From a virus: a DNA stretch of 64,000 nucleotides. Under the pieces are notes generated by a model, which worked only from the letters and a program-made list of their open reading frames with translations, did not search any database and was not told where the DNA came from. Below, piece after piece: positions 1,177 to 49,842 of this stretch. Both the position numbers and the translations under genes were made by a program. Within the stretch, counting starts at the first letter, position 1. Every line of letters starts with the position of its first letter. Location: positions 25,842-89,841 of the IMG/VR virus record IMGVR_UViG_3300043774_001004; one strand, written 5' to 3'.

Positions 1177-1665
1177 ATGAATAAGAGAATCATTTTAGTC
1201 GGTAAAGCTGGATCAGGCAAAGACTTCATGAGAAGGAAGTTAGAATCTAGAAATTTCAAATACGCAACAAGTTATACAACAAGACCTGCAAGAGAAGGTG
1301 AAGTAGAAGGTAAAGACTATTTCTTTATCTCTGAAGAAAAGGCTCAATGGATGATAGAAAATGGTGAGTTCTTTGAGTATGTCCCATTTAATGGTTGGAT
1401 CTATGGTACTACATTAAGTCAATGGAATCAAGAAAATGACGAAAGCGTTTTTATTATGACTCCAACTGGTCTTTCACATGTCGGTCCAGATGACAGAAAA
1501 GAATGCTTTGTAATTTTCGTTGATATCGATAAAGAGGTTAGAAAAGAAAGACTTCTCAACAGAAATATGCCAGGTGATAGCCTTGAACGAAGAATTGAGG
1601 CTGACGAATTGGACTTTGAAGATTTTTCTAATTATGATGTTAGAATTACCAATCCTGATTTCTGA
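1177..1665 (+). CDS. gmk: Guanylate kinase-like dNMP kinase
   Basis: Guanylate kinase transfers phosphate from ATP to GMP or dGMP; in phages such kinases feed dNTP synthesis. The P-loop GKAGSGKD is at residues 9-16. The GMP-binding stretch SYTTRPAREGEVEGKDY (31-47) matches the family signature closely. The protein is 162 residues against roughly 200 for cellular enzymes, with the C-terminal helices shortened. It is the first gene after the tmRNA terminator and opens a nucleotide-metabolism run with a second P-loop kinase and two thymidylate-synthase-fold enzymes. Activity on modified nucleotides is possible but not shown. Confidence 0.88.
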   Translation: MNKRIILVGKAGSGKDFMRRKLESRNFKYATSYTTRPAREGEVEGKDYFFISEEKAQWMIENGEFFEYVPFNGWIYGTTLSQWNQENDESVFIMTPTGLSHVGPDDRKECFVIFVDIDKEVRKERLLNRNMPGDSLERRIEADELDFEDFSNYDVRITNPDF

Positions 1666-2308: not shown

Positions 2309-2812
2309 ATGATATTCTTTATTGAAGGCTTGTCAGCCACAGGTAAAACAACTTTAATCAATAAGTATCTAGAAAAATACCCCAATAACGGCGCCATCCG
2401 ATTCAAAGGATCTGGCGCCGTTAACATTGGGATGCAATCGAGATGGCAAGAATATAATTTCTGGATGCATAACATTATTGAAAGAATGGACCAGCTTAAT
2501 GACTACAAAGTCCCATTTCTTTGGGATCGTGGCATTACTGATATCATTTATAGTGAAGATGAGAATTATGCAACAGAACTTTTAAGAGTTGTCAAATCAC
2601 ATATCCGTAAAGCTGTTATCTATATTGATGCTCCACCTTCAACATTAAACAGAAGAATGACTAAAGAAGGTAGTGATATGTCCGAACATGGTCGTAAATA
2701 TGAGCATGTAATTAAAAGTTTTGACATATTAAGAATTACTCTTTCAGGTGATTGTTTGATTACAGAAGAACATGTAGATATGCTTCATGAATATATTATG
2801 TCGAAGATATGA
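2309..2812 (+). CDS. P-loop deoxynucleoside/thymidylate kinase-like protein
   Basis: A probable deoxynucleoside or deoxynucleotide kinase of the thymidylate-kinase-like P-loop group. The Walker A is GLSATGKTT (residues 7-15); a WDRG motif near 72 corresponds to the DRS/DRG base of the substrate site; and YIDAPPSTLNRR in the C-terminal half matches the LID-proximal strand. At 167 residues it is compact. It overlaps the next gene by 4 bases (ATGA). Its 5' third contains a strong GC-rich inverted repeat (2381-2431). The exact substrate cannot be fixed from sequence; an hmdCMP/dTMP kinase role like T4 gp1 would fit the hydroxymethylase-like neighbours. Confidence 0.75.
   Translation: MIFFIEGLSATGKTTLINKYLEKYPNNGAIRFKGSGAVNIGMQSRWQEYNFWMHNIIERMDQLNDYKVPFLWDRGITDIIYSEDENYATELLRVVKSHIRKAVIYIDAPPSTLNRRMTKEGSDMSEHGRKYEHVIKSFDILRITLSGDCLITEEHVDMLHEYIMSKI
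2381..2431 (+). repeat. Long GC-rich inverted repeat inside the kinase gene
   Basis: CCCAAT plus AACGGCGCCA (2381-2396) pairs with TGGCGCCGTT (2413-2422) and ATTGGG (2426-2431), giving 16 bp interrupted only by a 3-base bulge. TCC/GGA can extend it inward. It is unusually GC-rich for this genome and lies wholly inside a coding region. Confidence 0.8.
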
Positions 2813-4026
2813 GTTTAAAGAAAGACTATAAAGAAATAATTAACAGAATCAATTCACTCAGAAGAATTGAATCATCAGGCGATCTAAATAAAAAGATTAA
2901 GAGAGTCGCAGTTATTCTTACTGGTTCACGTTCTGGTTCTAGTTTAATGAAAGCTGTAGTCTCAAAAAGTAATGATGTTGCATATCTTTCAGGTGAAGAA
3001 GAGCCATTTTTTATCTTAACAGGTAACGGCTTTCCATGGTCTAGTGACAGCGATGGCTTTAACACTATTAAGAATAAGCAAAAGCTTTTAGATAATCTAT
3101 TCGATGATCTAGGTATAAATGATAAGGTATTCAATCTCACGAAGACCCTACATGACTGGCGTAATCGTATACTGTTGCAATTTCCAGATGTCGATTCTGA
3201 TGTGATTGATTATCAGTTACCTAAGTATGTGTCTAAGTTTTATACAGAAGGCACAGACTATACTGAAGCAACACAAAAGATGTTGTTTACTACTTTCAAA
3301 GAAAGGGCAGGACTGTATGATATCTGTGACGGCAGCTATGATTTTATGCTTCAGAAATTCAAAATTGAAGAACCTCCTTTTGTAATCCCACCACAGCGTA
3401 GAAAATTTACAGAATCCGACATTGAAGACAAAGTCCTTGTATTCAAGACACCTCAAGACTGTTACAGAATAGGTATCTTTGAAGAGCTTTTTCCAAATGC
3501 GGATATCAAGTACATACATTTAACAAGAGGCTTTGCCCAAACAATCAATGGGCTTATGGATGGCTGGTTATCAGATACTGGCTTTTTTGCCCATGATGTT
3601 TCTATCATCAATGAGAAATTAAACATTGAAGGCTACTCTGATGTTAAACCTTATGGTAGCAAATGGTGGAAGTTTGACCTGCCTCCAAATTGGAAAGATT
3701 ATAAAGATGCCCCACTTCATGAGGTATGTTTAAATCAATGGCATTCTGCACATACGCATATCTTAAATTCAGGTAAGCAGGTATTGCATATTAGATTTGA
3801 GGATTTCTTAACTGATCCAAACACAACAGCAAATAAGATTACAGATTATCTTGGCATCAATCCTATCAAGATCGATCATATACCTGTAGTAATGGCAACA
3901 GAAAAGCCTGAACAGTTCAGATGGATGAAAAGAAGTGCGCTAATAAATGATCTTTCACAGAGAAAAGAGGTAAAAGAACTAATGGATGCGTTAAAATATA
4001 AAATGGAACCAGAGTTATGGGTGTAA
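2809..4026 (+). CDS. Sulfotransferase family protein
   Basis: A PAPS-dependent sulfotransferase-fold protein of 405 residues. The 5'-phosphosulfate loop is TGSRSGSSLM (38-47). The 3'-phosphate region is IKYIHLTRGFAQTINGL in the middle of the protein, and a late LHIRFEDFLTDP segment matches the RYEDL-type motif of the family. It is longer than typical bacterial members, with an insertion between the two PAPS motifs. It overlaps the previous gene by 4 bases and the next by 10. Two smaller sulfotransferases and an APS kinase elsewhere in the window suggest a sulfation pathway, though this copy sits among nucleotide genes. The acceptor is unknown. Confidence 0.8.
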   Translation: MSLKKDYKEIINRINSLRRIESSGDLNKKIKRVAVILTGSRSGSSLMKAVVSKSNDVAYLSGEEEPFFILTGNGFPWSSDSDGFNTIKNKQKLLDNLFDDLGINDKVFNLTKTLHDWRNRILLQFPDVDSDVIDYQLPKYVSKFYTEGTDYTEATQKMLFTTFKERAGLYDICDGSYDFMLQKFKIEEPPFVIPPQRRKFTESDIEDKVLVFKTPQDCYRIGIFEELFPNADIKYIHLTRGFAQTINGLMDGWLSDTGFFAHDVSIINEKLNIEGYSDVKPYGSKWWKFDLPPNWKDYKDAPLHEVCLNQWHSAHTHILNSGKQVLHIRFEDFLTDPNTTANKITDYLGINPIKIDHIPVVMATEKPEQFRWMKRSALINDLSQRKEVKELMDALKYKMEPELWV

Positions 4027-4997
4027 AAGAAACTAAAAATAAAAGATCTAAGAAAACAAAGGAACAAGAGTCTATTGATAAAGGCGTTGAGCTTTTACAT
4101 GATGTTCCTACTCAACCTCAGCCTGAAACTGAGGAAGAGCCAAATTATTTTAAATACGGATATACCAACGAGTACGATACACTCGTTGCAGCTATGATTC
4201 ATATTCCAAGAAGGAATGAGATTGAGTATTTCGATCCTAAAAAGGCCATGTACAAAAGCATTCCGAATTATGAAAAGCTTTTAGAAGAGGTTGATCAGTA
4301 CAGAACTCTTTTAATGAATCTGGGTATTCAGGTTTACGATGATGTGTATTTCCATGATACAGATTATAACCCATATCCTAACCAGATCTTTATGCGAGAT
4401 CTGGCAGTTATCACGCCAAATGCAATCATCTTAGCCAATCCTAAATACGATATTAGAAAAGGTGAAGAGAGAAACCTATTGGCAACAATGAGAAAATGGG
4501 GTTACTTTGGTCGTGTAATTGAACTTTCAAAAAATACGACAATGGAAGGTGCCGACTTTTTCTGGATATCTGAAAGTGAAGTCCTGGTATCAGTTGGTAA
4601 TAGAACTAGTGAAGATTTTGTAACAACATTTAAGTTCTTTTATCCAAATCTTAAAGTAACAGTTGTTGAAGCTGCTGCTGAAGGTATTCCTCAACATATC
4701 CTAGGTGGCGCACATATTGTTGATAAAGATACAATCATTCAACGCAAATCGATTGTAAAGCATGACCTTGGCTTCAAGAATACAATTTTACTTGAAGAAA
4801 CAGATGAGGTTGTTAATGGCTACGCAATGAATATCCTGACAGTAGGTCCAATGGAAATCATTATGCCATCTGGCAATCCGGAAACCAAGGCAATTTATGA
4901 ATCACATGGTATTAAAGTCCATGAAAGTCCAGCAAAGGAAATCGGTAAAATGGGAGGAGCCTTTGCCTGTATGACACTTCCAATGAAAAGAGGATAA
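4017..4997 (+). CDS. Arginine deiminase/amidinotransferase superfamily enzyme
   Basis: A guanidino-group-modifying enzyme of the pentein fold. Residues expected of the catalytic set are present: E177 in EGAD, H227 in PQHILGGAHIVD, and C318 in GGAFACMTLPM near the C-terminus; MRD (126-128) resembles the substrate-binding arginine/aspartate pair. The first ~45 residues are a charged, probably disordered extension. It could hydrolyse arginine to citrulline (deiminase), act on a methylated or other guanidino substrate, or transfer an amidino group; sequence alone does not decide. It overlaps the sulfotransferase gene and is followed after 2 bases by a hydroxymethylase-like gene. ArgG and ArgH at 47-50 kb could recycle citrulline to arginine. 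Confidence 0.78.
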   Translation: MGVKETKNKRSKKTKEQESIDKGVELLHDVPTQPQPETEEEPNYFKYGYTNEYDTLVAAMIHIPRRNEIEYFDPKKAMYKSIPNYEKLLEEVDQYRTLLMNLGIQVYDDVYFHDTDYNPYPNQIFMRDLAVITPNAIILANPKYDIRKGEERNLLATMRKWGYFGRVIELSKNTTMEGADFFWISESEVLVSVGNRTSEDFVTTFKFFYPNLKVTVVEAAAEGIPQHILGGAHIVDKDTIIQRKSIVKHDLGFKNTILLEETDEVVNGYAMNILTVGPMEIIMPSGNPETKAIYESHGIKVHESPAKEIGKMGGAFACMTLPMKRG

Positions 4998-4999
4998 TT

Positions 5000-5908
5000 A
5001 TGAAAATGAGTTTAAAGTACAATGAAGTTGAAAGTGCTGCAGCAGCATATCAATGGTTTTGTAAATTGATAAATGAAGAAGGTGATTATGTAACCAGCAG
5101 AGGTGAACAGACCAAAGAGGTTTTGAATGCTGGCGTTCTGATCAAGAATATCAGAGATCGTGTTATACCAATCTCTAACTTCAATGAACGTTTCATACTT
5201 CAAGAAACATACGATATCTTAAATGAAAATCAACCCAGGGTTATGCACTCTAAAGAGATGCTAGAAAAAACCATGGGTAATAGCAATAATATCATGTTCT
5301 TTGGTAATGAGATGCGTCAGGCTTTTAGCAGATGGTCGCTTCTTCGTATCAAAACTCTTTTTGAAAAAGATAAGTTCACAAGAAAGGCAATACTAGATTT
5401 AGGTAATAGAAGACCGATTGTGCATGCTCCATGTATGATTTACGCACATTTCATTATCAGAGACAATGCACTACACATGTTGGCTGAAACTAGGGGCACA
5501 GAAGTCTCCATGGGTTTTGTCAATGACATATATTTTTATACGATTATTCAAGAGCTGATGTACAATTGGCTTCTAGAAACCTATCCAGATCTTGAACTTG
5601 GAACTTTCTTATACAAAACTACATCACTTCATTATTTTACAAACAAGGATGGTGGCCCACTTTGGTCACAAGAGTTTATAGAATCTGATAGATCTGGTTA
5701 TATCATAACAGATTTGAAATATTGTGATTATATAGCCGAGATGGGAGTTTTATACCATTATGTCGATGCCTATATGAAAGCAGGTGAAAGAGAAGATGTC
5801 GATGCGGGTATAATTACAACATACAGAGACTTAAAGAATCCCGATTTTAATAATTTTAAGCAAGCTTTTTTCTATAATTGGGCAAAAATACTAACAACAG
5901 ATGAGTGA
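5000..5908 (+). CDS. Thymidylate synthase-fold protein (hydroxymethylase-like), copy 1
   Basis: A divergent thymidylate synthase/pyrimidine hydroxymethylase family member, 302 residues. The nucleophile is C145 in APCMIYAHF; R165 follows 20 residues later, exactly the family spacing; and the residue 11 after that Arg is D176 (FVNDIYFY), where thymidylate synthase has Asn. In T4 dCMP hydroxymethylase this Asn is Asp and confers cytosine preference, so dCMP is the more likely substrate than dUMP. The surrounding sequence is far from canonical (PCH became PCM), so it may have a new role. It overlaps the APH-like kinase gene by 8 bases and has a better-conserved paralogue at 6718. Confidence 0.78.
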   Translation: MKMSLKYNEVESAAAAYQWFCKLINEEGDYVTSRGEQTKEVLNAGVLIKNIRDRVIPISNFNERFILQETYDILNENQPRVMHSKEMLEKTMGNSNNIMFFGNEMRQAFSRWSLLRIKTLFEKDKFTRKAILDLGNRRPIVHAPCMIYAHFIIRDNALHMLAETRGTEVSMGFVNDIYFYTIIQELMYNWLLETYPDLELGTFLYKTTSLHYFTNKDGGPLWSQEFIESDRSGYIITDLKYCDYIAEMGVLYHYVDAYMKAGEREDVDAGIITTYRDLKNPDFNNFKQAFFYNWAKILTTDE

Positions 5909-6737
5909 TAAAGGCGGCAATACCAGTGCTTACAAAATTTACCATCAAGGTAAAATGAAATACTTTATCAAATCATTTCAGACAAATGGTTTTGATATCA
6001 GTAGCTTTACTTTTCAAAATTATCTCTACAATAATTTCAAATCAGATCTGAAGATCTGTAAGCCTATTAAGATAGTTTCTGAAAAGTCAAATGAGGTTCA
6101 AATCTATTATGAATATGTCAAGCCTATTGATTGGGAATTGACTGCAGACCGTGTTTCTTTCCTCGGTAAATCATTAGCAGAATTGCATAACTTCTGTTAC
6201 TTAAAGAAAAATGAAATTTCATTACCTGATAAAGTTGCAGTTGTTGCAATGGGTAAATGGCAAGATGTTGAAGATTCATTTGATAAAGAACTTGCAGTCA
6301 GTATCAGAAAGGCAATCTATGATAACTTAAAGCCTTATGATAGAGATCAGATACGCATTCCTCTTCATCGTGACTTTAAGTTACATAACATTATGTTTGA
6401 CGGTGAAAATCTTAATCTGATTGATTTTGATTTTGCAGCTATTGATAATATCGGCATAGAAATAATGTCGTTTATCATAGATTTTTACTATGAAACCAGG
6501 GATCAAAGTTTAGTATCTGATTTTATCAAAGCCTATAAACAAGAATCAAATCTTGACATAAATTGGACATCGGTACTAAATGACTATCTAGTCTATATGT
6601 GCGTTAATACATTTCCTTTCTATATGAGAGGTAGAATTGGAGAACATAACTTCAAGAACCTGCTTACTGAAAGAAATGGCAAACTAAATTTTACATACAT
6701 CAATAAAGATTTCTTATATGAGAGTTTACAGAGGTGA
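5901..6737 (+). CDS. APH-like small-molecule kinase
   Basis: A protein-kinase-like fold enzyme of the aminoglycoside phosphotransferase/choline kinase group, 278 residues. The catalytic loop is LHRDFKLHNIMFD, with H156, D158 and N163, and the metal-binding segment is LIDFDFA with D175 and D177. Such enzymes phosphorylate a hydroxyl on a small substrate using ATP. It is sandwiched, with overlaps on both sides (8 and 20 bases), between two thymidylate-synthase-fold genes, so all three are probably translated together. The inference is that it phosphorylates a hydroxymethyl pyrimidine or another intermediate of DNA-base modification; an antibiotic-resistance role is unlikely here. Confidence 0.75.
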   Translation: MSDKGGNTSAYKIYHQGKMKYFIKSFQTNGFDISSFTFQNYLYNNFKSDLKICKPIKIVSEKSNEVQIYYEYVKPIDWELTADRVSFLGKSLAELHNFCYLKKNEISLPDKVAVVAMGKWQDVEDSFDKELAVSIRKAIYDNLKPYDRDQIRIPLHRDFKLHNIMFDGENLNLIDFDFAAIDNIGIEIMSFIIDFYYETRDQSLVSDFIKAYKQESNLDINWTSVLNDYLVYMCVNTFPFYMRGRIGEHNFKNLLTERNGKLNFTYINKDFLYESLQR

Positions 6738-7590
6738 AACATTTGCAGAAGTTTATAGAAAATCACTTTGGGATCTAATTAACGATCCTGAGCATTCAGT
6801 GTCGCCACGTGGCATGAAAATCAATGAAGTGGTAAACGCAGTTCATGTCGTTGAAGATCCATCTTCTTGTCTTTACTATAATGAAAGACGTAGCAGCCAA
6901 TTGAAATATATTGCAGCAGAAACAGTTTATTACTTTGCTGGTCGTAGAGATCTTGGTTTTATCAAGAAGTTTGCCTCTTTCTGGGAACAGATTGCCAATA
7001 TTGACGCAACTGTCAATTCAGCTTATGGTAATCTAATCTTTACTGAGGTGAATAAGGCAGGTGTTACACAATGGGATTGGGCGTTTCAGTCTCTAGTTAA
7101 AGATAAAGATACTAGACAGGCTATTCTCCTGTTTAATAAGCCAGACTATCAATACTTTGGTAACAAAGACGTGATCTGTACCCTTAATGGTATCTTCAAC
7201 ATCAGAGATAATAAATTGAATTTCACAATTCAGATGCGTTCAAATGATGCCATTCTTGGAACTCCAACTGATTTTGCATTCTTCTGTTTATTACAAATGC
7301 AGATGCTAAAGCTTCTGAAAGAGAAAGCGTATCCTGAATTAGAACTGGGTACATTTACCCATATTGCAAATTCATATCACGTCTATGAAAGGCACTTTGG
7401 TCTAATACAAGACATGCTGTCTGGTTATTTTGAGCCATCTTCATTCGAGCCAATCAACGAAAACTTTATCAATTATGAAGGTAAACCTACTGCAGAATTT
7501 GAAAAGTTAACACATGCTGTTGAATATGGTACATCATACGAAACAGAAGATAAATTATTTAATTGGATATATGAAAAAGCAAGAATCTAA
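6718..7590 (+). CDS. Thymidylate synthase-family dCMP hydroxymethylase candidate, copy 2
   Basis: A well-conserved thymidylate synthase-fold enzyme of 290 residues. C154 is the nucleophile (VICTLNGIF), R174 starts the phosphate/substrate motif RSNDAILGTPTDFAFF, and D185 occupies the base-recognition position that is Asn in thymidylate synthase and Asp in T4 dCMP hydroxymethylase. The likely reaction is dCMP plus methylene-tetrahydrofolate giving 5-hydroxymethyl-dCMP. A late HIANSYHVYERH corresponds to the HxYxxH dUMP-binding segment. The gene begins inside the kinase gene and ends inside the phosphoesterase-like gene. A plain thymidylate synthase remains possible but the Asp argues against it. 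Confidence 0.85.
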   Translation: MRVYRGETFAEVYRKSLWDLINDPEHSVSPRGMKINEVVNAVHVVEDPSSCLYYNERRSSQLKYIAAETVYYFAGRRDLGFIKKFASFWEQIANIDATVNSAYGNLIFTEVNKAGVTQWDWAFQSLVKDKDTRQAILLFNKPDYQYFGNKDVICTLNGIFNIRDNKLNFTIQMRSNDAILGTPTDFAFFCLLQMQMLKLLKEKAYPELELGTFTHIANSYHVYERHFGLIQDMLSGYFEPSSFEPINENFINYEGKPTAEFEKLTHAVEYGTSYETEDKLFNWIYEKARI

Positions 7591-8089
7591 GTTCTTTGTT
7601 ACCAGTGATACTTTTTTCGGAAGGGTCAATAAAGCCGCTGAAAGGGGCTTTGCAACCGTTGAGGAAATGGATGAGGCCCTTGTCGAAAACTGGAACGCAA
7701 AAGTCGGCAAGGACGATGTTGTCGTACATCTGGGTAATTTTGCATGGACGCCAAATCATGTTGAGGAAATACTAGAAAGACTAAATGGCACCATAATCTT
7801 CTTGCTCGGCGACAGAGATCAGGCTCTCGCAAAAGTTGCTGAAGTTAACGAAGATATAAAATTACAGCAAGAGCAAATCCTAACACATGATAATGTCATA
7901 CTGTCTCACTGGCCACTTGAAATATGGCCAGGCAAAGATAAAGACTTCTATCACTTTCATGGCCACGCTGAACCTGGATTAAGAACAGATATCAAATTGA
8001 TGAAAAGGGTTAACGCATGCTGTGACCATTGGTCTTTAGCGCCGATAGAAATAAAAGACACTATTGATCTTCTAAGTGATTTTATGTAA
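7571..8089 (+). CDS. Calcineurin-like phosphoesterase with degenerate metal site
   Basis: The fold signature of small metallophosphoesterases is visible: SD at 12-13, HLGNFAW (53-59), LLGDRDQ (79-84), LSHWP (111-115) and HFHGH (128-132). Several canonical ligands are changed: DxH is D13-T-F15, the GD motif is GN56, GNHD is GDRD, and the final GHxH is GHAE. This suggests loss or alteration of dinuclear metal chemistry. I place the start at ATG 7571 (20-base overlap with the previous gene); an upstream ATG at 7514 would overlap by 77 bases. It lies at the end of the base-modification-like run. An intact family member occurs at 52316. Confidence 0.72.
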   Translation: MKKQESKFFVTSDTFFGRVNKAAERGFATVEEMDEALVENWNAKVGKDDVVVHLGNFAWTPNHVEEILERLNGTIIFLLGDRDQALAKVAEVNEDIKLQQEQILTHDNVILSHWPLEIWPGKDKDFYHFHGHAEPGLRTDIKLMKRVNACCDHWSLAPIEIKDTIDLLSDFM

Positions 8090-9191: not shown

Positions 9192-9509
9192 ATGATTAAG
9201 AAATTTGCAGAAAGAAACAATGTTGTAAATGAGGCTAAAATGCCAACTGTTTCTAAGGAACCCATATTCGAAAACAAAGTCATATCAGAAGAGGATGCTG
9301 CAAAGCAAGCTATACTGGATTCTTTGAAGGAGCTTCAAGATGAGTTTTCAGGTCATGTTGATGACGTTCTTGCCTATCTTGAAAGCACTATAGAGGACTA
9401 TGAAGAATATCTCAGCAAAGAGACATATAAACACGTAGATGACTTATTTACACATATTTCAGAAGCGCAAGTTTCCTTAGTCAAAGCAATTATTTCACTA
9501 AGAAAATAA
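9192..9509 (+). CDS. Leader-tagged acidic helical protein
   Basis: This 105-residue protein starts MIKKFAERNNVVNEAK, a variant of the leader with VVNE as the presumed cleavage site at residues 11-14. The rest is acidic and helical (LKELQDEFSGHVDDVLAYLE and following), possibly coiled coil. No enzyme motif is seen. A strong terminator follows, so it ends the unit that begins at 8810. Confidence 0.6.
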   Translation: MIKKFAERNNVVNEAKMPTVSKEPIFENKVISEEDAAKQAILDSLKELQDEFSGHVDDVLAYLESTIEDYEEYLSKETYKHVDDLFTHISEAQVSLVKAIISLRK

Positions 9510-9518
9510 AACTATATC

Positions 9519-9545
9519 AGGCCGGTTTAATTACCGGCCTTTTTA
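9519..9545 (+). terminator. Rho-independent terminator
   Basis: GGCCGGT (9520-9526) pairs perfectly with ACCGGCC (9533-9539) around a 6-base loop and is followed by TTTTT, just downstream of the stop at 9509. Confidence 0.9.
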
Positions 9546-9588
9546 TGTCTAAACTTTACTAAAGTATAACGTATAAAAAAGAAAGAAC

Positions 9589-10038
9589 ATGTACTTAATA
9601 GATCTTTGGAACGATATTACAATTTGGTATAAGTATGCCAAGGTTACCAAGAGTAATCGAAAAAAGCTCGAAGAGAAAAAACTCAGAGTCGATTGGGCAG
9701 GTAGAATATACACTGTAGTCAATGTACCAGATGAGCTTAAAAATTATCCAAATATCGAGATGTGGGTTATGCAACAACTTGGCCCATATAATGATGTTCT
9801 TTTAGAACTCGGTATAGCAGACTATTCATTTCCTGAAGTTCAAAGAATTGAAGAGCCTGGTGTCGATGCCTATCTTGTTGTTATGTACCCTGAACTTAAT
9901 AGCATAAGCTTCTGGCGTATCATACTTGAGATTGCAAAATGGGCCGGAATTGTGATTGCAATTAAAATAGGTTACAGCATCTGTATAGAAAATAATGTTT
10001 TTACTAATATAGGAAATTTCTTCTCTAAATATGTCTGA
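9589..10038 (+). CDS. Hypothetical membrane-anchored protein
   Basis: This 149-residue protein has a soluble N-terminal part (about 1-105) and one hydrophobic helix near residues 108-133 followed by a short tail. I do not recognise the soluble part; it includes a Trp/Pro-rich segment around 60-80. The gene starts about 43 bases after a terminator, behind GTATAACGTATAAAAAAG, a possible promoter resembling AACGTTATAAAAAAC before the guanylate kinase gene. It overlaps the nuclease gene by 8 bases. Confidence 0.6.
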   Translation: MYLIDLWNDITIWYKYAKVTKSNRKKLEEKKLRVDWAGRIYTVVNVPDELKNYPNIEMWVMQQLGPYNDVLLELGIADYSFPEVQRIEEPGVDAYLVVMYPELNSISFWRIILEIAKWAGIVIAIKIGYSICIENNVFTNIGNFFSKYV

Positions 10039-13633: not shown

Positions 13634-16600
13634 ATGCCGATACCTTTAAATGAGCCACCACAGAGGATAACGAATGAACCGCCTACAGGGGTCATTAAGT
13701 TAACCAGAGAGCTTCAATTACTGAAGCCTGTGCTCACGTCTGATGGTGTCTTTACTGATAGAATTACTCTTAACAATACATTTCTTGTTCTTGACTGGAA
13801 TAACTGGCCTGAACTTGAATACGACGTCGTCGATGATCTTTATCAAATTAGAATAGGGGCATCAGGCACTAGTGGTACTGGTGGAATAGGAGCAGCTATC
13901 ACAATTTTAGACGAGGGTAATCCTGTTACAACTAATGTCAGCTCAATCAATTTTGTAGGTGATATAATTACAGCACAGTCCCTAGATCCTCTCGATCCAA
14001 CTGCAGTTACTGTAACTGTTACTACTCCTGCCCAAACCGAATTTTATTCATGTTCACCATGGCAGATTTTAAGTACAAACAATACTCCGGCACTTCTTTC
14101 TACAAATAACGGCCGTGCAAATCTTAACGATAATACACCGCAATTTGTCAACACTCTATATTTACATGTAGATGACTTTAACGGTACAGATCAGGCTACA
14201 TGGATAGATTCATGGCAGGACAGTGGAGCATATGGCTATATTAGTTTAACTGGTATTACAACTGGCGCATACCTAAATGGTTATGTCACTGGTACTTTCC
14301 CAGGCACTAACACAAGAGAGATATACATAAATGTACTTTCTTATAGTTCAACTGATTTTATAAATGGTGAAAAACTAGTTGTTTGTTTTACACAAAACGG
14401 TGCAAATGGTACATCTGGTTCAAGTGGTACATCAGGAACTAGCGGAGCAACATACGGCACCAGTGGCTCATCTGGTACTAGAGGCACTAGTGGTACCAGC
14501 GGTAAAGGTACATCTGGCTCATCAGGTTCATCTGGCTCATCGGGTTCAAGTGGTACTATAGGTACTTCAGGTACGTCTGGTACTACATTTGGATCTAGTG
14601 GTTTAGACGGTACAGCAGGTACAAGCGGTACTACTGGTATAGATGGTTCAAGCGGTACATCTGGTCAAAATGGTACCAGCGGATCATCCGGATCCTCAGG
14701 TTCATCAGGAACCAGCGGTGTTACAGGTTCATCAGGAACCAGCGGTGTTACAGGTTCATCAGGAACCAGCGGTGTTAATGGAACAAGTGGTATAGACGGT
14801 TCTAGTGGAACCAGTGGAGCTAATGGCACTAGAGGTACAAGTGGTACAAGTGGCAATACAGGTTCTAGTGGAACTAGTGGAGCTAATGGCACTAGAGGTA
14901 CAAGCGGTTTATCAGGAACGAGCGGTAATGATGGTTTAAATGGTTTACCGGGTACTTCAGGAACAAGTGGTTCAAGTGGCACTAGAGGGACATCTGGATT
15001 ATCAGGTTCAAATGGAACCAGTGGTGTAACAGGTTCGTCAGGAACAAGTGGTGTTAATGGTTCTTCAGGAACAAGTGGTGCCAATGGCACAAGTGGTTCA
15101 AGCGGCACTAGAGGAACATCTGGATCTTCAGGTTCATCGGGAACAAGTGGTGTAACAGGTTCATCAGGAACCAGTGGTGCCAATGGCTCATCAGGAACCA
15201 GTGGTGCCAATGGCTCATCAGGAACCAGTGGTGCCAATGGCACTAGAGGCTCATCTGGATCTTCAGGTTCATCAGGAACAAGTGGTAATACAGGTTCATC
15301 AGGAACAAGCGGTAATAATGGCTCAAATGGTACTAGAGGTTCAAGTGGCTCAAGCGGTACTAGTGGTGTAGGTACAAGTGGTACTTCAGGTAATAATGGC
15401 TCAAATGGTACTAGAGGCTCATCTGGCTCAAGTGGTACATCAGGTCCTGCAGGTTCTTCAGGTACAAGCGGTGCTGATGGTAATAATGGCTCAAATGGTA
15501 CTAGAGGTTCAAGTGGCTCAAGCGGTACTAGTGGTGTAGGTACAAGTGGTACTTCAGGTAATAATGGCTCAAATGGTACTAGAGGCTCATCTGGGTCAAG
15601 TGGTACATCAGGTCCTGCAGGTTCAAGCGGTACAAGCGGTGCTGATGGTAATAATGGCTCAAATGGTACTAGAGGTTCAAGTGGCTCAAGCGGTACTTCA
15701 GGTAATGATGGTTTAAATGGTACATCTGGTAGTAGCGGTTCGTCTGGAACTAGAGGTTCTTCAGGTACATCTGGTAGTAGCGGTTCGTCTGGCTCATCTG
15801 GCTCATCTGGCTCATCTGGTTCTTCAGGCACTTCAGGTACTAGAGGTACTTCAGGTACATCTGGACAAGACGGAGCAGCTGCACCGGGTTGCTATGAGTA
15901 TTTCTTAAAACTTAACGGTGCCACTGGAGGAAGCCCTTCAGCTCTGACTCCAGGTGAGGCATATCAAAACGTAGCAGCTGCTGCATCCATTACGGAATTT
16001 GCTATATACGAAATTGATGCTAACTCTCTAGATATTTCTTCTTTTCTAAATACTATAACAGCAGGTTGTACAATTACAGTAACTGGTCAGACAAGTGGAG
16101 CAACTCTTACTGCAACCATTGGTTCAGTAAACATCATATCAGGTACAATATATCGTTTTACAGGTTTAACTGTTATTGCATCTAGTGGTACTTTTATAAC
16201 AGCGAATGTCGGTACAGAATTAGCATGGGTTTGTTTCTCATGTGCCGGTACAAGCGGTAATAGCGGTACTTCAGGTACAAGTGCTGTAGGTACTTCGGGC
16301 ACATCAGGAGCTAATGGTCTTTCTTTAGTTACTACAACGACTGGAGGAGGTGTAGTAGAAGTTAGCCCAGGTTGTTTTCAAAATACGGGTGCTGCAGGTT
16401 TTGGTAACTATGTCTATAGCGACCAGGCCTACACAAATGCATATATTTCAGTTACTATATCAAATACTGGAGTATATGCAACAGGCTTAAGTACTAATCA
16501 AATACCCGTAGTTACATCACCTCCAGTAGCAGGTAATTATGACTATTGGATCTTCTTTGGTGCTGGAGGTACTGGTACAGCTTATGGCCCAGGTGGTGTT

Positions 16601-17959
16601 GTGTTAGCTAATTTTATAACACCTGGTTTCTTTTCAGCCGGTGATATTATAACAATCGTCTGGGATGGCTCACTTGCAACATATTATCAAAATGGTGTTG
16701 TAATAGCTACCACTACATTACCGCCTACAGGAGGAAACCCTCTATACGGTTCAACTGTTTTGAGCTCAACTGGTGACCAAGTATGTGACTTTATATTTGG
16801 ACCAGTCGGACAAGGAGGTACTGGTACATCCGGTACTTCAGGCACAACAGGTCCTACAGGTACATCTGGTACTTCAGGAAACAATGGTACATCTGGTACA
16901 AGTGGAGCTAATGGTACAAGCGGTACTTCAGGTTCAAATGGCACTGCAGGTACTTCAGGTTCTTCATCAATATGCCCATGTATCTGTGCAGAATGGGTTA
17001 TTAAACCTACAACAAATCCTGCAGCCGGTCAAGGAGTTCTAAATCCTACATTAGTTGCTACAGGTATTACAAGCATCAATCTACACAATACTGACGCTAA
17101 TTCTATAAACCAGGCGGCTTGGTTTGCTACATGGACCGGAGGCGGTAATTGGATAATGGTTGGTCAGTCAAGTGGAGCTACTGCAAGTGGCTTTACAACT
17201 AGTGTTAATACATCGCCTGGTGGTTTTACTGGCGTGTCACTCGGTGTTACAGTTGTTAGCGGTTCTGGAACTTTTACAGCAAATGAAACTATAACATTCT
17301 GCTTTGATCCAACAGGAGGTGGAGGAACAGGTACTTCAGGTACATCTGGAACTAGCCCCGGAGGAGGTGGCGGTACATCTGGTACTTCAGGATCATCTGG
17401 AACCAGAGGCACATCAGGTGTAAATGGAGCAACAGGTCCTGCAGGTACATCAGGAACATCAGGTGCCGGAGGAGGAAAAGCTATAACGCCAATAGCAGAA
17501 AGTTCATGTCAAATTACAGACAATAGTACAATTTACGTAGGCGACTCGAAGGCAGGATGGGCAGGCCCCGGCTGGGATGTTCAGCGTACAGGAGGCTTGA
17601 CGATCAGTATTAACAGTGCATGGTGTTTAATTAAAATACCAACAGAATTTACCGGCGGTGTTGATGCGTTTAAACTATGTGCTTCAGGTTATTGTGCTTC
17701 ATGTGACGATTCTGACAATATCGGCGCAGCCGTATGGATTGTAAGTTGTGCAGATCTTGAAGGTGCTACAACTGATATTGATCTTGTACTCTGGGACAAT
17801 TTTAGTACTAAGTATTATAGAAACGGAACTTTTTGTCTTACCGGATCAGATAAAGCCCCTAAGACAATTCCAGCATGTGATATGCTTCTTATAGGTTTTT
17901 ATTCTACTGGTGGTACATCCGATACCGTTAATATAACCTGGCGATTAGACGAGGTATAA
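13634..17959 (+). CDS. Giant collagen-like fibre protein
   Basis: This 1441-residue protein is dominated by Gly-X-Y triplets (about residues 256-747, with short runs later) such as GTS, GSS, GAN, GTR and GNN. Proline is almost absent and Thr/Ser/Asn fill X and Y, unlike animal collagen but like other phage and spore collagen-like fibres. Globular parts interrupt it. Three related beta domains (about 142-250, 752-869 and 1120-1225) share a D-x-N-x(4)-W-x(3)-W theme and end in a CF pair. A lectin/SPRY-like domain lies at about 900-1058, and a cysteine-containing head at 1283-1441. Trimeric tail or head fibre with receptor-binding head is likely. The Thr/Ser triplets are potential O-glycosylation sites, and the gene is followed by about 24 kb of glycan genes. 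Confidence 0.88.
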   Translation: MPIPLNEPPQRITNEPPTGVIKLTRELQLLKPVLTSDGVFTDRITLNNTFLVLDWNNWPELEYDVVDDLYQIRIGASGTSGTGGIGAAITILDEGNPVTTNVSSINFVGDIITAQSLDPLDPTAVTVTVTTPAQTEFYSCSPWQILSTNNTPALLSTNNGRANLNDNTPQFVNTLYLHVDDFNGTDQATWIDSWQDSGAYGYISLTGITTGAYLNGYVTGTFPGTNTREIYINVLSYSSTDFINGEKLVVCFTQNGANGTSGSSGTSGTSGATYGTSGSSGTRGTSGTSGKGTSGSSGSSGSSGSSGTIGTSGTSGTTFGSSGLDGTAGTSGTTGIDGSSGTSGQNGTSGSSGSSGSSGTSGVTGSSGTSGVTGSSGTSGVNGTSGIDGSSGTSGANGTRGTSGTSGNTGSSGTSGANGTRGTSGLSGTSGNDGLNGLPGTSGTSGSSGTRGTSGLSGSNGTSGVTGSSGTSGVNGSSGTSGANGTSGSSGTRGTSGSSGSSGTSGVTGSSGTSGANGSSGTSGANGSSGTSGANGTRGSSGSSGSSGTSGNTGSSGTSGNNGSNGTRGSSGSSGTSGVGTSGTSGNNGSNGTRGSSGSSGTSGPAGSSGTSGADGNNGSNGTRGSSGSSGTSGVGTSGTSGNNGSNGTRGSSGSSGTSGPAGSSGTSGADGNNGSNGTRGSSGSSGTSGNDGLNGTSGSSGSSGTRGSSGTSGSSGSSGSSGSSGSSGSSGTSGTRGTSGTSGQDGAAAPGCYEYFLKLNGATGGSPSALTPGEAYQNVAAAASITEFAIYEIDANSLDISSFLNTITAGCTITVTGQTSGATLTATIGSVNIISGTIYRFTGLTVIASSGTFITANVGTELAWVCFSCAGTSGNSGTSGTSAVGTSGTSGANGLSLVTTTTGGGVVEVSPGCFQNTGAAGFGNYVYSDQAYTNAYISVTISNTGVYATGLSTNQIPVVTSPPVAGNYDYWIFFGAGGTGTAYGPGGVVLANFITPGFFSAGDIITIVWDGSLATYYQNGVVIATTTLPPTGGNPLYGSTVLSSTGDQVCDFIFGPVGQGGTGTSGTSGTTGPTGTSGTSGNNGTSGTSGANGTSGTSGSNGTAGTSGSSSICPCICAEWVIKPTTNPAAGQGVLNPTLVATGITSINLHNTDANSINQAAWFATWTGGGNWIMVGQSSGATASGFTTSVNTSPGGFTGVSLGVTVVSGSGTFTANETITFCFDPTGGGGTGTSGTSGTSPGGGGGTSGTSGSSGTRGTSGVNGATGPAGTSGTSGAGGGKAITPIAESSCQITDNSTIYVGDSKAGWAGPGWDVQRTGGLTISINSAWCLIKIPTEFTGGVDAFKLCASGYCASCDDSDNIGAAVWIVSCADLEGATTDIDLVLWDNFSTKYYRNGTFCLTGSDKAPKTIPACDMLLIGFYSTGGTSDTVNITWRLDEV
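14699..14776 (+). repeat. 27-base tandem repeat in fibre gene
   Basis: Three near-identical copies of a 27-base unit (GGTTCATCAGGAACCAGCGG plus TGTTACA) encode GSSGTSGVT triplets. A related 27-base unit with GCCAAT is repeated three times near 15157-15240. Confidence 0.8.
15311..15699 (+). repeat. 168-base tandem duplication in collagen-like region
   Basis: A 168-base unit (56 codons, starting GGTAATAATGGCTCAAATGG) occurs at 15311-15478 and again at 15479-15646 almost without change, and a third copy starts at 15647 and diverges after about 53 bases. It encodes GNN GSN GTR and following triplets, including a GVG break in the Gly-X-Y register. Confidence 0.85.
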
Positions 17960-37976: not shown

Positions 37977-38651
37977 GTGTTTTCAATCTATTATTTAACA
38001 ACGGATGGCGAAGGTATTAAGTATATCGGATTAACTAAAAGAGAATTGTCGATAAGATTAAATGCACACATCAGTAAAGCTTTCAGAAGAAAAAAGCTAA
38101 ATAGAGCCCAGTCTTGGATAAAATCGAGGATTAAAATCGGCAAAAATATCCAAATAGTTAAAATAGAATCAGATATTAAAACAATTGAAGAGGCAAATGA
38201 ACGTGAAAAATATTGGATAAAGCACTATAAAAACACTGGAAATGATTTACTAAATAGCACAGAAGGTGGCGATTCAATAAAATCTTATTGGGACGGGCGT
38301 AAACAAACAAGAGAACATTCTGAAAAAATACGCGAAGCATTAACCGGTCGAAAACTGTCTGATAAGCATAAAGAAACAATGCGAAAAAACAGAATCGAAA
38401 AGATGGTAGGAAATAAAGAAGTTTTGTGTTTTAACCAACAAGGCGTTTTTTATAAAAAATTCAAATCATGCGGTAGAGCAGCTTCTGAATTAAAGATAGG
38501 AAGATCTTCTGTAATTAAATGTGCAAATGGCAATAAAAGGAGTTCTGGTGGTTACTTATTTAGATACATGTCTGAATTTGAAACTATTCCTGAGTTTATT
38601 GAAGTTCCAAAAAGAAATAATACACAACATATTGAAAGAGGAGAATCCTGA
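37977..38651 (+). CDS. GIY-YIG homing endonuclease
   Basis: A free-standing GIY-YIG nuclease of 224 residues with GTG start. The first strand pair is IYYL...KYIGLTKRELSIR with a catalytic Arg, and EREKYWIKHYKN supplies the metal-binding Glu region. The middle TREHSEKIREALTGRKLSDK is a NUMOD3-type DNA-binding repeat, and ASELKIGRSSVIKCANG near the end is a NUMOD1-like helix-turn-helix. It lies between kdsD and the DUF5522-like/kdsA pair, as an insertion would, and its end overlaps the next gene. No intron boundary is evident. Confidence 0.88.
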   Translation: MFSIYYLTTDGEGIKYIGLTKRELSIRLNAHISKAFRRKKLNRAQSWIKSRIKIGKNIQIVKIESDIKTIEEANEREKYWIKHYKNTGNDLLNSTEGGDSIKSYWDGRKQTREHSEKIREALTGRKLSDKHKETMRKNRIEKMVGNKEVLCFNQQGVFYKKFKSCGRAASELKIGRSSVIKCANGNKRSSGGYLFRYMSEFETIPEFIEVPKRNNTQHIERGES

Positions 38652-40318: not shown

Positions 40319-40766
40319 GTTTAAACCGACTCTAGATAAGTTAAGACACGTTTTAAAGTCATTCAGTTACAGGGTCTATTCAACCTGTATCACAATTACA
40401 ATTGCGTATCTAGTTTCAGACGACCTTGAAAGGGCCATGTCAATCGGCGCAGTTGACTTCAGTGTTAAATTATTCACATACTATATCCATGAAAGGATTT
40501 GGTTTTATATCCCATTTGGTTTACAAAGACCTCGTAAAATACATTCAGAAATTTCTTGGGAACCTGACCCTGAATCTTGGACTCAGGTAGCTTTTATACA
40601 AAGTGAAAATGGCAAAATGAGAAAACGTGCTAAGATCTTAACAGATGGTCATGGCGATTACAGAGCCGTTTTATCTTCATACAATTCTGATACAAAGGCT
40701 CGCCATAACGATATAATAAGTGGTACTAAAGAAACTATTGAAAATAAATTAAACATCAAATTATAA
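40287..40766 (+). CDS. DUF2061 membrane protein
   Basis: A 159-residue protein with two short membrane helices in the first 75 residues. [20 protein letters not shown] and [18 protein letters not shown] are the DUF2061 signature. DUF2061 genes neighbour or fuse to APS kinase genes in many bacteria, and here it overlaps the cysC stop/start by one base. The C-terminal half is soluble and unfamiliar. A link with sulfate activation or transport is inferred from this recurrent association. Confidence 0.78.
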
Positions 40767-46796: not shown

Positions 46797-47370
46797 AAAT
46801 TTCGGTCAGTTTCTTAATGAAAACGACGTCGATGCCAGAATTTTCTGTGACATGGATGGGGTTTTATGCGATTTCGATAAAGCTTTTAAATCTTCAAACG
46901 ATGACGGGTTAAGCTTTGAGGAATACGATAAAGTAAATGGTAAAGGCTCAGGATGGGCTATTATCTCAAAACAGGGTGAAGGCTACTGGTCTAATCTAGA
47001 ATGGATGTCAGATGGCAAAGAACTCTGGGACTATCTAAATACTATTTCAGCACCTACTATTCTATCTTCACCCAGTCGTGAATATAGTAGCATCAAGGGT
47101 AAAATGAAATGGATCAATGCCAATCTGGGTATTTCACAAGATACACCAACTACAAAAAGCAAAGATTGGGACAAATCTACCAGAATTATTCTCAGTTCAC
47201 ATAAACATTTATATGTTTTGCCAGACCCAAATGTTAAGTCAATCCTGATCGATGATACACAATCTAAGATCGATAAATGGACAGAGGCTGGTGGCATAGG
47301 TATTTTACATACCAATACAGTTGATACAATTTCAAAGCTTCAGGATATAATCAAACAATATGGAATATAA
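46789..47370 (+). CDS. Leader-tagged HAD 5'-nucleotidase-like protein
   Basis: A 193-residue protein starting MIKNFGQFLNENDVDARIF, where FLNE is a textbook leader site, followed at once by FCDMDGVLCDFDKAF, the DxDG nucleophile of the NT5C-type HAD family. ILSSPSREYSSI is motif II, and SILIDDTQSKIDKW is motif IV. It may dephosphorylate nucleotides. Removal of the leader would leave the catalytic domain starting only a few residues before the nucleophile strand. The argG gene begins 11 bases before its stop. Confidence 0.82.
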   Translation: MIKNFGQFLNENDVDARIFCDMDGVLCDFDKAFKSSNDDGLSFEEYDKVNGKGSGWAIISKQGEGYWSNLEWMSDGKELWDYLNTISAPTILSSPSREYSSIKGKMKWINANLGISQDTPTTKSKDWDKSTRIILSSHKHLYVLPDPNVKSILIDDTQSKIDKWTEAGGIGILHTNTVDTISKLQDIIKQYGI

Positions 47371-48607
47371 AAAGATCGCATCATACGAAGCCCAAGAGGG
47401 TAGCTTCGATAAGGTTCTTCTACTTTATTCAGGAGGGCTGGACACATCCGTTATGTTAAAATGGATTCAGGATAAGTATAACGCTGAGGTTTATGCCCTT
47501 TGTGTTGATATTGGTCAACGTGAAGATTTTGAACCAATTGTCGATAAGGCAATTAAACTAGGAGCTAAAAAATGTGAAGTAGCCAGAGTCGAAAACAAGT
47601 ATGCAATGCTTCAATTAAATGAGGCAATCATGTTTAATGCCGACTATGAAGATGGCTACCACCTGTTCTGTCCTCTTGGTCGAATTGCTATTGCATATAC
47701 TGCAGTTGAATATGCCAGAAAATGGGGTATCAATGTGGTTGCTCATGGAGCAACTGGAAAAGGAAATGACCAGATTCGTTTTGATAACTACATTACTACA
47801 CTGGCTCCTGATATTAAAATCTTGGCTCCAGTTAGAGAATGGGCAATGGGACGTGAAGAAGAGATTGCTTATGCACAAGAACATAACATACCTGTTACAG
47901 CCAGTCTAGAGAAGATTTATAGTTATGATGAAAATCTTTGGGGTTGCTCAGCTGAAGGCGGTGAAATTGAAGATTTTAAGAAAGTGCCACAACTGGATAG
48001 AATTTTGAAATTCACTAAGCTACCTGAAGACTCTATCGACGAGGTAGAATATATTGATATTACGTTCAGTTCAGGTATGCCAATGCTTATAAGTGGCGGA
48101 GAAGATGGTGAAGTAATCATGGATGGTACAACAGCCAGTATAATTAAGAAAGCAAATCACCTGGGCAGAAAGCATGGTATTGGAATTACACATCTTGTTG
48201 AGGACAGGGTAATTGGTCTTAAAGTAAGAGGTGTATATGAGGAACCTGGTGCTGAAATCTTAGTTAAAGCCCATAAAGCACTTGAGAAAACAGTTTGTAC
48301 TAGAGAAGAGATACTTTTCAAAGAACAGGTTGATCGTCAATGGTCACAGTTGGTTTATGAAGGTCGATATTATCATCCCCTAATGGATTCACTGAGAGGC
48401 TTTACACGTGAAATGAATAGTAAAGTTGAAGGTGTTGTTACAATGCGACTATACAAAGGTCGATGTGAAGCTGTAGCCATTACTTCTAAATTTTCTCTAA
48501 ATAATGAGAACTCATCATTTATGAAAGACAACTTTAATCAAAACGCAAGTGCTGGCTTTATTGAGCACTTCGGATATACACAAAGAATCGCATATAATTT
48601 AAAATGA
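47360..48607 (+). CDS. argG: Argininosuccinate synthase
   Basis: A full-length enzyme of 415 residues that condenses citrulline and aspartate using ATP. LLLYSGGLDTSVMLKW is the PP-motif of N-type ATP pyrophosphatases, and AHGATGKGNDQIRFD and LEKIYSYDENLWG are family hallmarks. It overlaps the leader-tagged HAD gene by 11 bases and argH by 4 (ATGA), so it belongs to the same phage unit and is not a chance host fragment. Arginine biosynthesis genes are rare in phages. The citrulline could come from the deiminase-like enzyme at 4017. Confidence 0.95.
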   Translation: MEYKKIASYEAQEGSFDKVLLLYSGGLDTSVMLKWIQDKYNAEVYALCVDIGQREDFEPIVDKAIKLGAKKCEVARVENKYAMLQLNEAIMFNADYEDGYHLFCPLGRIAIAYTAVEYARKWGINVVAHGATGKGNDQIRFDNYITTLAPDIKILAPVREWAMGREEEIAYAQEHNIPVTASLEKIYSYDENLWGCSAEGGEIEDFKKVPQLDRILKFTKLPEDSIDEVEYIDITFSSGMPMLISGGEDGEVIMDGTTASIIKKANHLGRKHGIGITHLVEDRVIGLKVRGVYEEPGAEILVKAHKALEKTVCTREEILFKEQVDRQWSQLVYEGRYYHPLMDSLRGFTREMNSKVEGVVTMRLYKGRCEAVAITSKFSLNNENSSFMKDNFNQNASAGFIEHFGYTQRIAYNLK

Positions 48608-49842
48608 GTAAAATCTGGCAAAAAAACAACCAGTTAGATAGAGATGCAGAAATCTTCTGTAGCTTTACCACTGGCAATGATTATCAATTAGACGATGTTT
48701 ATTTTCTAAAACATGACATCGATGCCAGCATTGTTTGGGTTCAGGCCCTGTTGCAGTGTGGTATTTACAATAATGAAGAGGCAGCCAAAGTAATTGATGA
48801 ACTTCTCCGTATACAAATAGATCATGAACAGGGTGACTTTCATGTTCGACAAAGTGATGAAGACTGTCATACTGCAATTGAAAAAAGGCTTATCGAGATG
48901 ACCGGGGAGCTTGGTAAGAAGATTCATACAGGTCGAAGCAGGAATGATCAGTCATTGACCATGATCAGACTATTCATGAAAGACACACTTACTGAAATCA
49001 TAGGTGACGCAAGTACATTGAATTTGGAAATAAGTGAAAGATTTAATGAATGGTTTGATCAGGTCTTCATCGGCTATTCACATACACAACAGGCAATGCC
49101 TATTACCGTAGGTCACTACTTCATGGCATTTAAAGAATCTCTCCTAGACGATATTTCAAATATCATTTCAACTCATAATCATATCAATCTTTGCCCATTG
49201 GGTACAGGAGCCGGTTTTGGTACACCTCTAGATATAAACAGAGATTTTATTGCAGCAGCACTGGGTTTCAGAGAGGTACAAAACAATAGTCTGTACTGCC
49301 AAAATAGTAGAGGCAAGTTCGAGTTATTATACATACAGTCTCTGATGCAGGTCATGCTTACACTACAGCGACTGGCGTCAGATATGGTGTTATACACTTC
49401 TAGAGAGTATAGCCTGTTTAAGATGTCTGATAGTCTTTCACAAGGTAGCAGTATGATGCCACAGAAAAAGAACCCAGATGTCTTTGAAATAATCAGGGCA
49501 AAAGCCGCAGATGTTATGGCGCTTGAGGAACGGGTTAAGTTTATCATTAAGGGTTTGCCAAGTGGGTATAACAGAGATCTACAAGAAATAAAAGCCTGCA
49601 TTGTTGATGCCTATAATATCACTAAAAACTGTATCTATGTTACAAAGCTGGCTATCAAACATATTGAGCCAAATCCAGAAATGATAGAAAAGAGACTGGA
49701 AAAAGATATAGTGGCCACAGATTATGTCATCAGTAAATGTATGAATGAGCCAGATCTTAATTTCAGAGACTTATACAATGAAATCATGAATGGTGAAATT
49801 AACATGTCAGTTTCAGATGCTGTAAAGCTTAGAATAGGCTAA
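48604..49842 (+). CDS. argH: Argininosuccinate lyase
   Basis: A 412-residue member of the fumarase/aspartase superfamily that splits argininosuccinate to arginine and fumarate. DEDCHTAIEKRLIE, IHTGRSRNDQSLTMIRLF and the signature GSSMMPQKKNPD with the flexible catalytic serine loop are intact. It is slightly shorter than typical enzymes (about 450), mainly at the C-terminus. It is co-translated with argG and followed by a TATATA box. Confidence 0.95.
   Translation: MSKIWQKNNQLDRDAEIFCSFTTGNDYQLDDVYFLKHDIDASIVWVQALLQCGIYNNEEAAKVIDELLRIQIDHEQGDFHVRQSDEDCHTAIEKRLIEMTGELGKKIHTGRSRNDQSLTMIRLFMKDTLTEIIGDASTLNLEISERFNEWFDQVFIGYSHTQQAMPITVGHYFMAFKESLLDDISNIISTHNHINLCPLGTGAGFGTPLDINRDFIAAALGFREVQNNSLYCQNSRGKFELLYIQSLMQVMLTLQRLASDMVLYTSREYSLFKMSDSLSQGSSMMPQKKNPDVFEIIRAKAADVMALEERVKFIIKGLPSGYNRDLQEIKACIVDAYNITKNCIYVTKLAIKHIEPNPEMIEKRLEKDIVATDYVISKCMNEPDLNFRDLYNEIMNGEINMSVSDAVKLRIG

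Follow-up and report, generated by a model that had tools for sequence, protein, structure and literature searches.

On balance, we consider it probable that the viral DNA analysed here (the window; 64,000 nucleotides, bases 25842–89841 of an 89841-base contig, itself a linear fragment) carries a phage island for making a hypermodified cytosine, with one of its two thymidylate synthase (TS) homologues, TS2, as the hydroxymethylase. The other homologue, TS1, is a divergent protein whose gene is found together with those for a kinase, a sulfotransferase and an enzyme that processes arginine, and this association points to an undescribed DNA modification. Judging from the gene content, the final base, derived from 5-hydroxymethyl-dCMP, probably carries an arginine-derived side chain. 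An earlier note on this DNA had described the two TS genes on either side of an APH-like kinase gene, and the gene boundaries (Table 1) and the kinase assignment are as it reported; the overlaps measure 8 bases (TS1/APH) and 20 bases (APH/TS2). The functional unit is larger than proposed, beginning at position 2309 with genes for a P-loop kinase, a sulfotransferase and an ADI/DDAH-like hydrolase; this wider gene context supports the idea of a pathway toward hypermodified cytosine.

Table 1. Predicted genes of the window that are discussed in the text, with the evidence for each assignment
Feature	Position	Strand	Length (aa)	Evidence
Guanylate-kinase-like nucleotide kinase	1177..1665	+		Pfam PF00625, 3e-21
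P-loop (deoxy)nucleotide kinase-like protein, first cassette gene	2309..2812	+		PHROG thymidylate kinase, 6.7e-7; weak AAA_33/dNK Pfam matches
Putative PAPS-type sulfotransferase (Sulfotransfer_3)	2809..4026	+		Pfam PF13469, 9.3e-10, above cut-off
Arginine deiminase/DDAH-like guanidino hydrolase	4017..4997	+		Pfam ADI, 6.1e-18; best PDB profile match DDAH, 5.4e-16
TS1, divergent TS-fold enzyme	5000..5908	+	302	PHROG, PDB profile, predicted fold, alignment
APH-family small-molecule kinase	5901..6737	+	278	PF01636, E=2.9e-9, 37.5 bits (cut-off 23.2)
TS2, putative dCMP 5-hydroxymethylase	6718..7590	+	290	PDB profile matches; signature residues E68, S101-A-Y103, D151-x-x-C154, T155, D185
ArgG and ArgH (argininosuccinate synthase and lyase), complete pair	47360..49842	+		NCBIfam equivalogs, above cut-off

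The note compared both TS homologues with the T4 dCMP hydroxymethylase (dCH) on the basis of an Asp at the base-selecting site. In a 37-row alignment, this residue (D176 in TS1, D185 in TS2) indeed matches Asp179 of T4 dCH and Asn177 of the Escherichia coli enzyme, and lies 11 positions after the conserved Arg in both proteins (R165 and R174). It is invariant in all seven TS1 proteins and in all TS2 orthologues found, and is thus not a chance substitution. The Cys-to-Arg spacing of 20, to which the note also drew attention, is present in TS1 (C145/R165) and TS2 (C154/R174); however, the same spacing in E. coli ThyA (C146/R166) identifies it as a family constant, which indicates membership in the TS fold and adds no further weight. 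Asp at position 177 together with a changed residue 147 marks TS homologues on cytosine-modified contigs in a metagenome association study (PMC8670742). Position 147 is occupied by Thr in TS2, as in T4 dCH, and by Met or Leu in TS1, so that neither protein has the Asn at 177 and His at 147 of a thymidylate synthase.

TS2 is, with high probability, a dCMP 5-hydroxymethylase, in agreement with the earlier suggestion of a cytosine hydroxymethylase. This assignment follows from its residue signature, its PDB matches, its dCMP-favouring residues and the coexistence of its orthologues with ThyA or ThyX. The hydroxymethylase signature derived from the ternary T4 structure comprises Glu60, the motif Ser94-x-Tyr96, Asp145 at the third position ahead of the Cys, and Asp179 (PMC6400193); in the alignment, TS2 has the counterpart of each (Table 1), with the D-x-x-C motif invariant across all its orthologues. 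TS2 matches the Pfam profile PF00303 (E=7e-15); its best PDB matches are MilA (1e-20) and T4 dCH (3e-19), the best TS reaching only 2e-8. Introduction of the equivalents of Ser175 and Arg133 into MilA shifts its preference from CMP to dCMP (PMC6400193), and TS2 carries both; overall, it shares all catalytic and specificity residues with the T4 gp42 dCMP hydroxymethylase and the MilA CMP hydroxymethylase. A canonical ThyA with Asn177 is encoded near the TS2 orthologue in three related records (L015, L019 and L020), and ThyX is found in the same genome in two others (L004 and L022). TS2 accompanied by nucleotide kinases, without the remainder of the gene set, occurs in many other phages, including those of 429–482 kb, and a guanylate-kinase-like gene lies near TS2 irrespective of the presence of that set (L004, L012–L014, L016, L018, L023).

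TS1 has no Pfam match over threshold but, judging from profile matches (PHROG 'thymidylate synthase', E=2e-9; PDB profile, E=2e-4) and a structural model, is a member of the TS-fold superfamily. The predicted fold most closely resembles MilA (Z 17.0) and AfhB (Z 16.1), with the best true TS at 13.4 (VIA), and Foldseek likewise retrieves MilA (E 6e-11), with AfhB in fourth rank, although confidence in the model is only moderate (pLDDT 61 and pTM 0.61 overall, with pLDDT below 50 in the active-site loop 136–146). R34, E69, R128, C145, R165, D176 and H211 are kept in all seven TS1 proteins, which by alignment thus retain the residues that hold the cytidylate and attack C6. Of the hydroxymethylase signature, the base-site Asp, the Cys and the Glu (D176, C145, E69) are present, but the Asp three residues before the Cys and the Ser-x-Tyr motif are not: all seven members have H142-x-x-C145, with His in place of T4 Asp145, and Phe (F101) in place of Tyr96, the latter match being set by a shared aromatic-Gly step, from which the MAFFT alignment deviates here by two columns. 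Furthermore, Met or Phe occupies the Ser position of Ser-x-Tyr (M/F99), M87 replaces a Trp, Gly follows the Arg in all seven members where Ser is expected, and an invariant extra Arg-Arg-Pro (137–139) precedes the Cys. Given that the T4 mutants Y96F and D145N yield no product (PMC6400193), it is very unlikely that TS1, which has neither residue, acts as a further hydroxymethylase of the T4 kind; the base-site Asp alone does not make it one, as far as can be read from the residues. Compared with T4 gp42 and MilA, it lacks the equivalents of Ser94, Tyr96, Asp145 and Asp171 and falls into a separate clade.

This clade of seven members is fully supported (100/100) and set apart by a stem 3.26 changes per site in length, indicating that TS1 represents an old separate family and not a copy of TS2; a recent duplication of TS2 is ruled out by the tree. 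The dN/dS ratio between the window and L005 is 0.036, pointing to purifying selection, with dS near saturation. No TS1 relatives were found in the genome_contigs collection. The view that TS1 is divergent enough for different chemistry therefore holds, and its reaction might prove to be of a new category altogether.

Searches with profiles of TS1 and of the sulfotransferase recovered the order P-loop kinase, sulfotransferase, ADI/DDAH-like hydrolase, TS1 and APH kinase (hereafter the cassette) in seven phage contigs (the window, L005, L006, L008, L009, L010 and L029), the L009 contig starting within the sulfotransferase gene and L029 having a few genes between ADI and TS1. The five-gene order is kept down to 55% TS1 identity; the relatives' contigs are fragments, and the absence of a gene from a record is weak evidence. 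APH adjoins TS1 in all seven loci and was not found in 12 related phage records without TS1; the P-loop kinase holds the same place in L005, L006, L008, L010 and L029. A D-type hydroxymethylase, that is, one with Asp at the base site, follows the cassette in four of the seven contigs (the window, L005, L006 and L029); the protein from L029 is distant (L036, 1351–2238, minus strand) yet has the SxY, DxxC and Asp residues. In L008–L010, where the cassette has other flanks, no TS2 was seen in fragments of at most 19 kb. A tblastn search of 50,697 phage records gave no match to APH, ADI or the sulfotransferase (window and L030 versions), and we found no description of the cassette in the literature searched.

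The hydrolase retrieves ADI, amidinotransferase and DDAH structures in Foldseek, and its GME-fold catalytic set (D128, E177, H227, C318) is invariant in seven proteins; as in DDAH, the second Asp that ADI has after the His is missing. In the APH kinase, the HxD…N…DxD motif is invariant (H156xD158, N163, D175xD177). Two insertions were seen in related loci. In L005, a 244-aa ORF (7264–7998) lies between ADI and TS1 in an otherwise intact cassette and resembles the window ORF at 37977–38651, which looks GIY-YIG-like by eye. In L029, a nucleoside 2-deoxyribosyltransferase-like gene (9404–9865; PF15891, 2e-34) lies between the sulfotransferase and ADI.

TS1 might instead perform another known cytidylate chemistry, as an AfhB-like flavin dCMP 5-hydroxylase or a dCMP methylase, so that together with TS2 the phage would make two different cytosine modifications. 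AfhB, the dCMP hydroxylase of phage HY126 (PDB 9iqu, 9iqc), combines the TS fold with new chemistry on dCMP and, as the second-best fold match of TS1, illustrates that the fold hosts non-folate reactions; the base-site Asp, Cys and Glu would suit such an enzyme. However, AfhB has an acidic residue three positions before the Cys and an RS pair where TS1 has His and RG, no other cassette gene needs a 5-hydroxyl, and the co-inheritance of TS1 with APH, the sulfotransferase and ADI would be left unexplained. We therefore regard this alternative as unlikely.

The composition of the cassette is illuminated by thymidine hypermodification, in which ADDT, an amino acid:DNA transferase, takes part. In three phage records (L028, L030 and L031), a cassette-type sulfotransferase lies beside ADDT, accompanied by a guanidino partner, which belongs to the arginase family in L030 and is related to ADI in the other two; the L030 genome also encodes two hmU DNA kinases and a TS homologue of the N type, in which the base site is occupied by Asn. 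All ten sulfotransferase loci found in phages contain either TS1-APH or ADDT, and all thus lie in hypermodification settings. The sulfotransferase and hydrolase are associated either with ADDT and an N-type TS homologue (L028 and L030; none was seen in the 23-kb record of L031) or with TS1 and APH, joined by a D-type hydroxymethylase in four of seven loci, none being seen in the other three, which are short fragments. This contrast is clean, although the ten phage loci on which it rests include some fragments. ADDT (PF18724) had no match in any of the TS1 records, that of the window included, and the hmU DNA kinase (PF18723) had none in the window's record, L006, L010 or L029, all of these records being fragmentary. 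Thus, the window and the thymidine islands share the sulfotransferase and its ADI or arginase partner, as well as a common logic of hydroxymethyl base, kinase and coupling enzyme, but the window lacks ADDT and HMUDK_hel and has TS1, APH and a cytosine-type hydroxymethylase instead. TS1 and APH seem to take the place of ADDT. A role for the sulfotransferase as activator in place of the hmU kinase is made less likely by the L030 genome, which has the sulfotransferase along with both kinases.

Homologues of the sulfotransferase are also encoded in bacteria, mostly Burkholderiales (e.g. L064:7995–10042 and L106:4036–10402). In 56 of 60 bacterial loci (L053–L112), a guanidino hydrolase gene lies directly downstream, often with an overlap of a few bases, and belongs to the arginase family in 44 loci and to the ADI family in 12. 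The interchange of unrelated guanidino-acting enzymes beside one sulfotransferase makes it probable that arginine, or a compound derived from it, is processed by this pathway. PAPS-making CysD and CysN/C are encoded close by in L097, L099 and L106, and in some loci the pair is accompanied by CysD/CysNC as well as by a second sulfotransferase and a gene for a radical SAM protein. None of the 60 loci encodes TS1, APH or ADDT, so the pair, of which we found no description in the literature searched, need not act on a base.

These bacterial loci bear on the possibility that the cassette makes not a DNA base but a diffusible nucleoside-like molecule, directed against the host or rival phages. Mildiomycin, a comparable compound, starts from MilA-made hydroxymethyl-CMP and contains an arginine-derived part; MilA heads both the structural matches of TS1 and the PDB sequence matches of TS2, and the chromosomal neighbourhoods just described would suit such a product. 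We nonetheless consider this quite unlikely, given that Ser175 and Arg133 in TS2 favour dCMP over CMP (PMC6400193), that the pair sits with ADDT in three phages and that the cassette is devoid of exporter and peptide-synthetase genes.

It is more doubtful still, indeed very improbable, that TS1 has a weak catalytic or a regulatory role, perhaps as the second subunit of a heterodimer with TS2, and leaves the chemistry to TS2 and the kinase. TS enzymes are dimers in which Arg residues are shared across the interface, several catalytic residues are gone from TS1, and a D-type TS adjoins it in four contigs; yet all seven members retain the nucleophile, the catalytic Glu and the Asp that selects the base, and L008–L010 contain TS1 with no adjacent TS2. 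That both proteins serve ordinary thymidylate metabolism beside unrelated neighbours is hardly credible: ThyA is frequent in phages and many database entries label such genes thymidylate synthase, but the Asp at 177 in both proteins, DxxC and SxY in TS2, the coexistence of ThyA with TS2 orthologues and the long-maintained five-gene order all speak against it.

For the island making a hypermodified cytosine, we propose the following route on the strength of sequence evidence throughout. TS2 would convert dCMP to 5-hydroxymethyl-dCMP with methylene-THF, and the APH kinase would phosphorylate either the hydroxymethyl group or the incoming amine. In TS1, the Arg residues and Asp176 would hold the cytidylate while Cys145 adds to C6; a new nucleophile, probably arginine through its amine or guanidine group, would then be attached by way of the exocyclic methylene, with neither a folate one-carbon unit nor a water quench, and His142 would sit where hydroxymethylases have the water-activating Asp. 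This coupling step, as written, is a tentative suggestion that may well prove wrong, and the retention of the folate-activating Glu69, which would be dispensable in a folate-free mechanism, argues against it. Subsequently, the ADI/DDAH-like enzyme would hydrolyse the guanidino group, the sulfotransferase would tailor or activate the product, and the P-loop and guanylate-kinase-like enzymes would convert the modified dCMP into its diphosphate, ready for incorporation. In this scheme, TS1 and APH, acting on cytosine at the nucleotide level, would be the counterpart of the hmU kinase and ADDT, which act on thymine at the DNA level. With similar reserve, we suggest that TS1 and APH together might form a C–N bond, placing an arginine-derived amine on the 5-methylene of cytidylate, with the sulfotransferase–hydrolase pair trimming or sulfonating the adduct.

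As a variant, the DDAH-like enzyme might cleave arginine that is alkylated at nitrogen, giving an aminomethyl base and citrulline, the latter of which ArgG and ArgH could recycle. The window encodes both enzymes, and recycling of citrulline to arginine is a possible role for them; the variant is speculative, ArgG being confined to this genome and absent from all other records searched, for which reason ArgG/ArgH were dropped as fixed parts of the pathway. CysC was dropped likewise, having been seen only here and in LR756500, the latter without the cassette; in the window, this APS kinase, encoded at 40766, is fused to a HAD-like part.

There are known systems in which a D-type TS homologue initiates cytosine modification and glucose, arabinose or carbamoyl groups are attached at a later stage; amino-acid-type side chains are known for thymine. 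Hypermodification of phage bases shields DNA from nucleases and has been a source of enzymes for sequencing chemistry. Carboxymethylcytosine arises by a separate reported route (PMC12783734). As in the systems that carbamoylate or glucosylate 5-hydroxymethylcytosine (the MetaGPA carbamoyltransferase, the T4 glucosyltransferases and the Xp15 neighbourhood), a D-type TS homologue in the window would supply hydroxymethylcytosine, but the tailoring genes differ, and neither a carbamoyltransferase nor a base glucosyltransferase was identified beside TS2. The cluster suggests an amino-acid-type path for cytosine and a new function for the TS fold; if TS1 does couple C to N, it would define a new class of cytosine hypermodification at the nucleotide level, possibly yielding a sulfonated or aminomethyl base. 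The occurrence of the sulfotransferase–arginine hydrolase pair in phages and on many bacterial chromosomes gives it relevance to both.

Elsewhere in the window, a large glycan region (17997–39554) contains, by eye, many glycosyltransferase-like genes, sulfotransferase-like genes at 28674 and 29959, a GDP-mannose dehydratase-like gene and three KDO-synthesis-like genes. It is preceded by a gene (13634–17959) for a protein of 1441 aa, likely a virion fibre or adhesin, in which Gly-Ser-Thr repeats (GTSG/SSG) form very long stretches. The ORFs upstream of the window have a virion-structural appearance, including, by eye, a likely contractile tail sheath.
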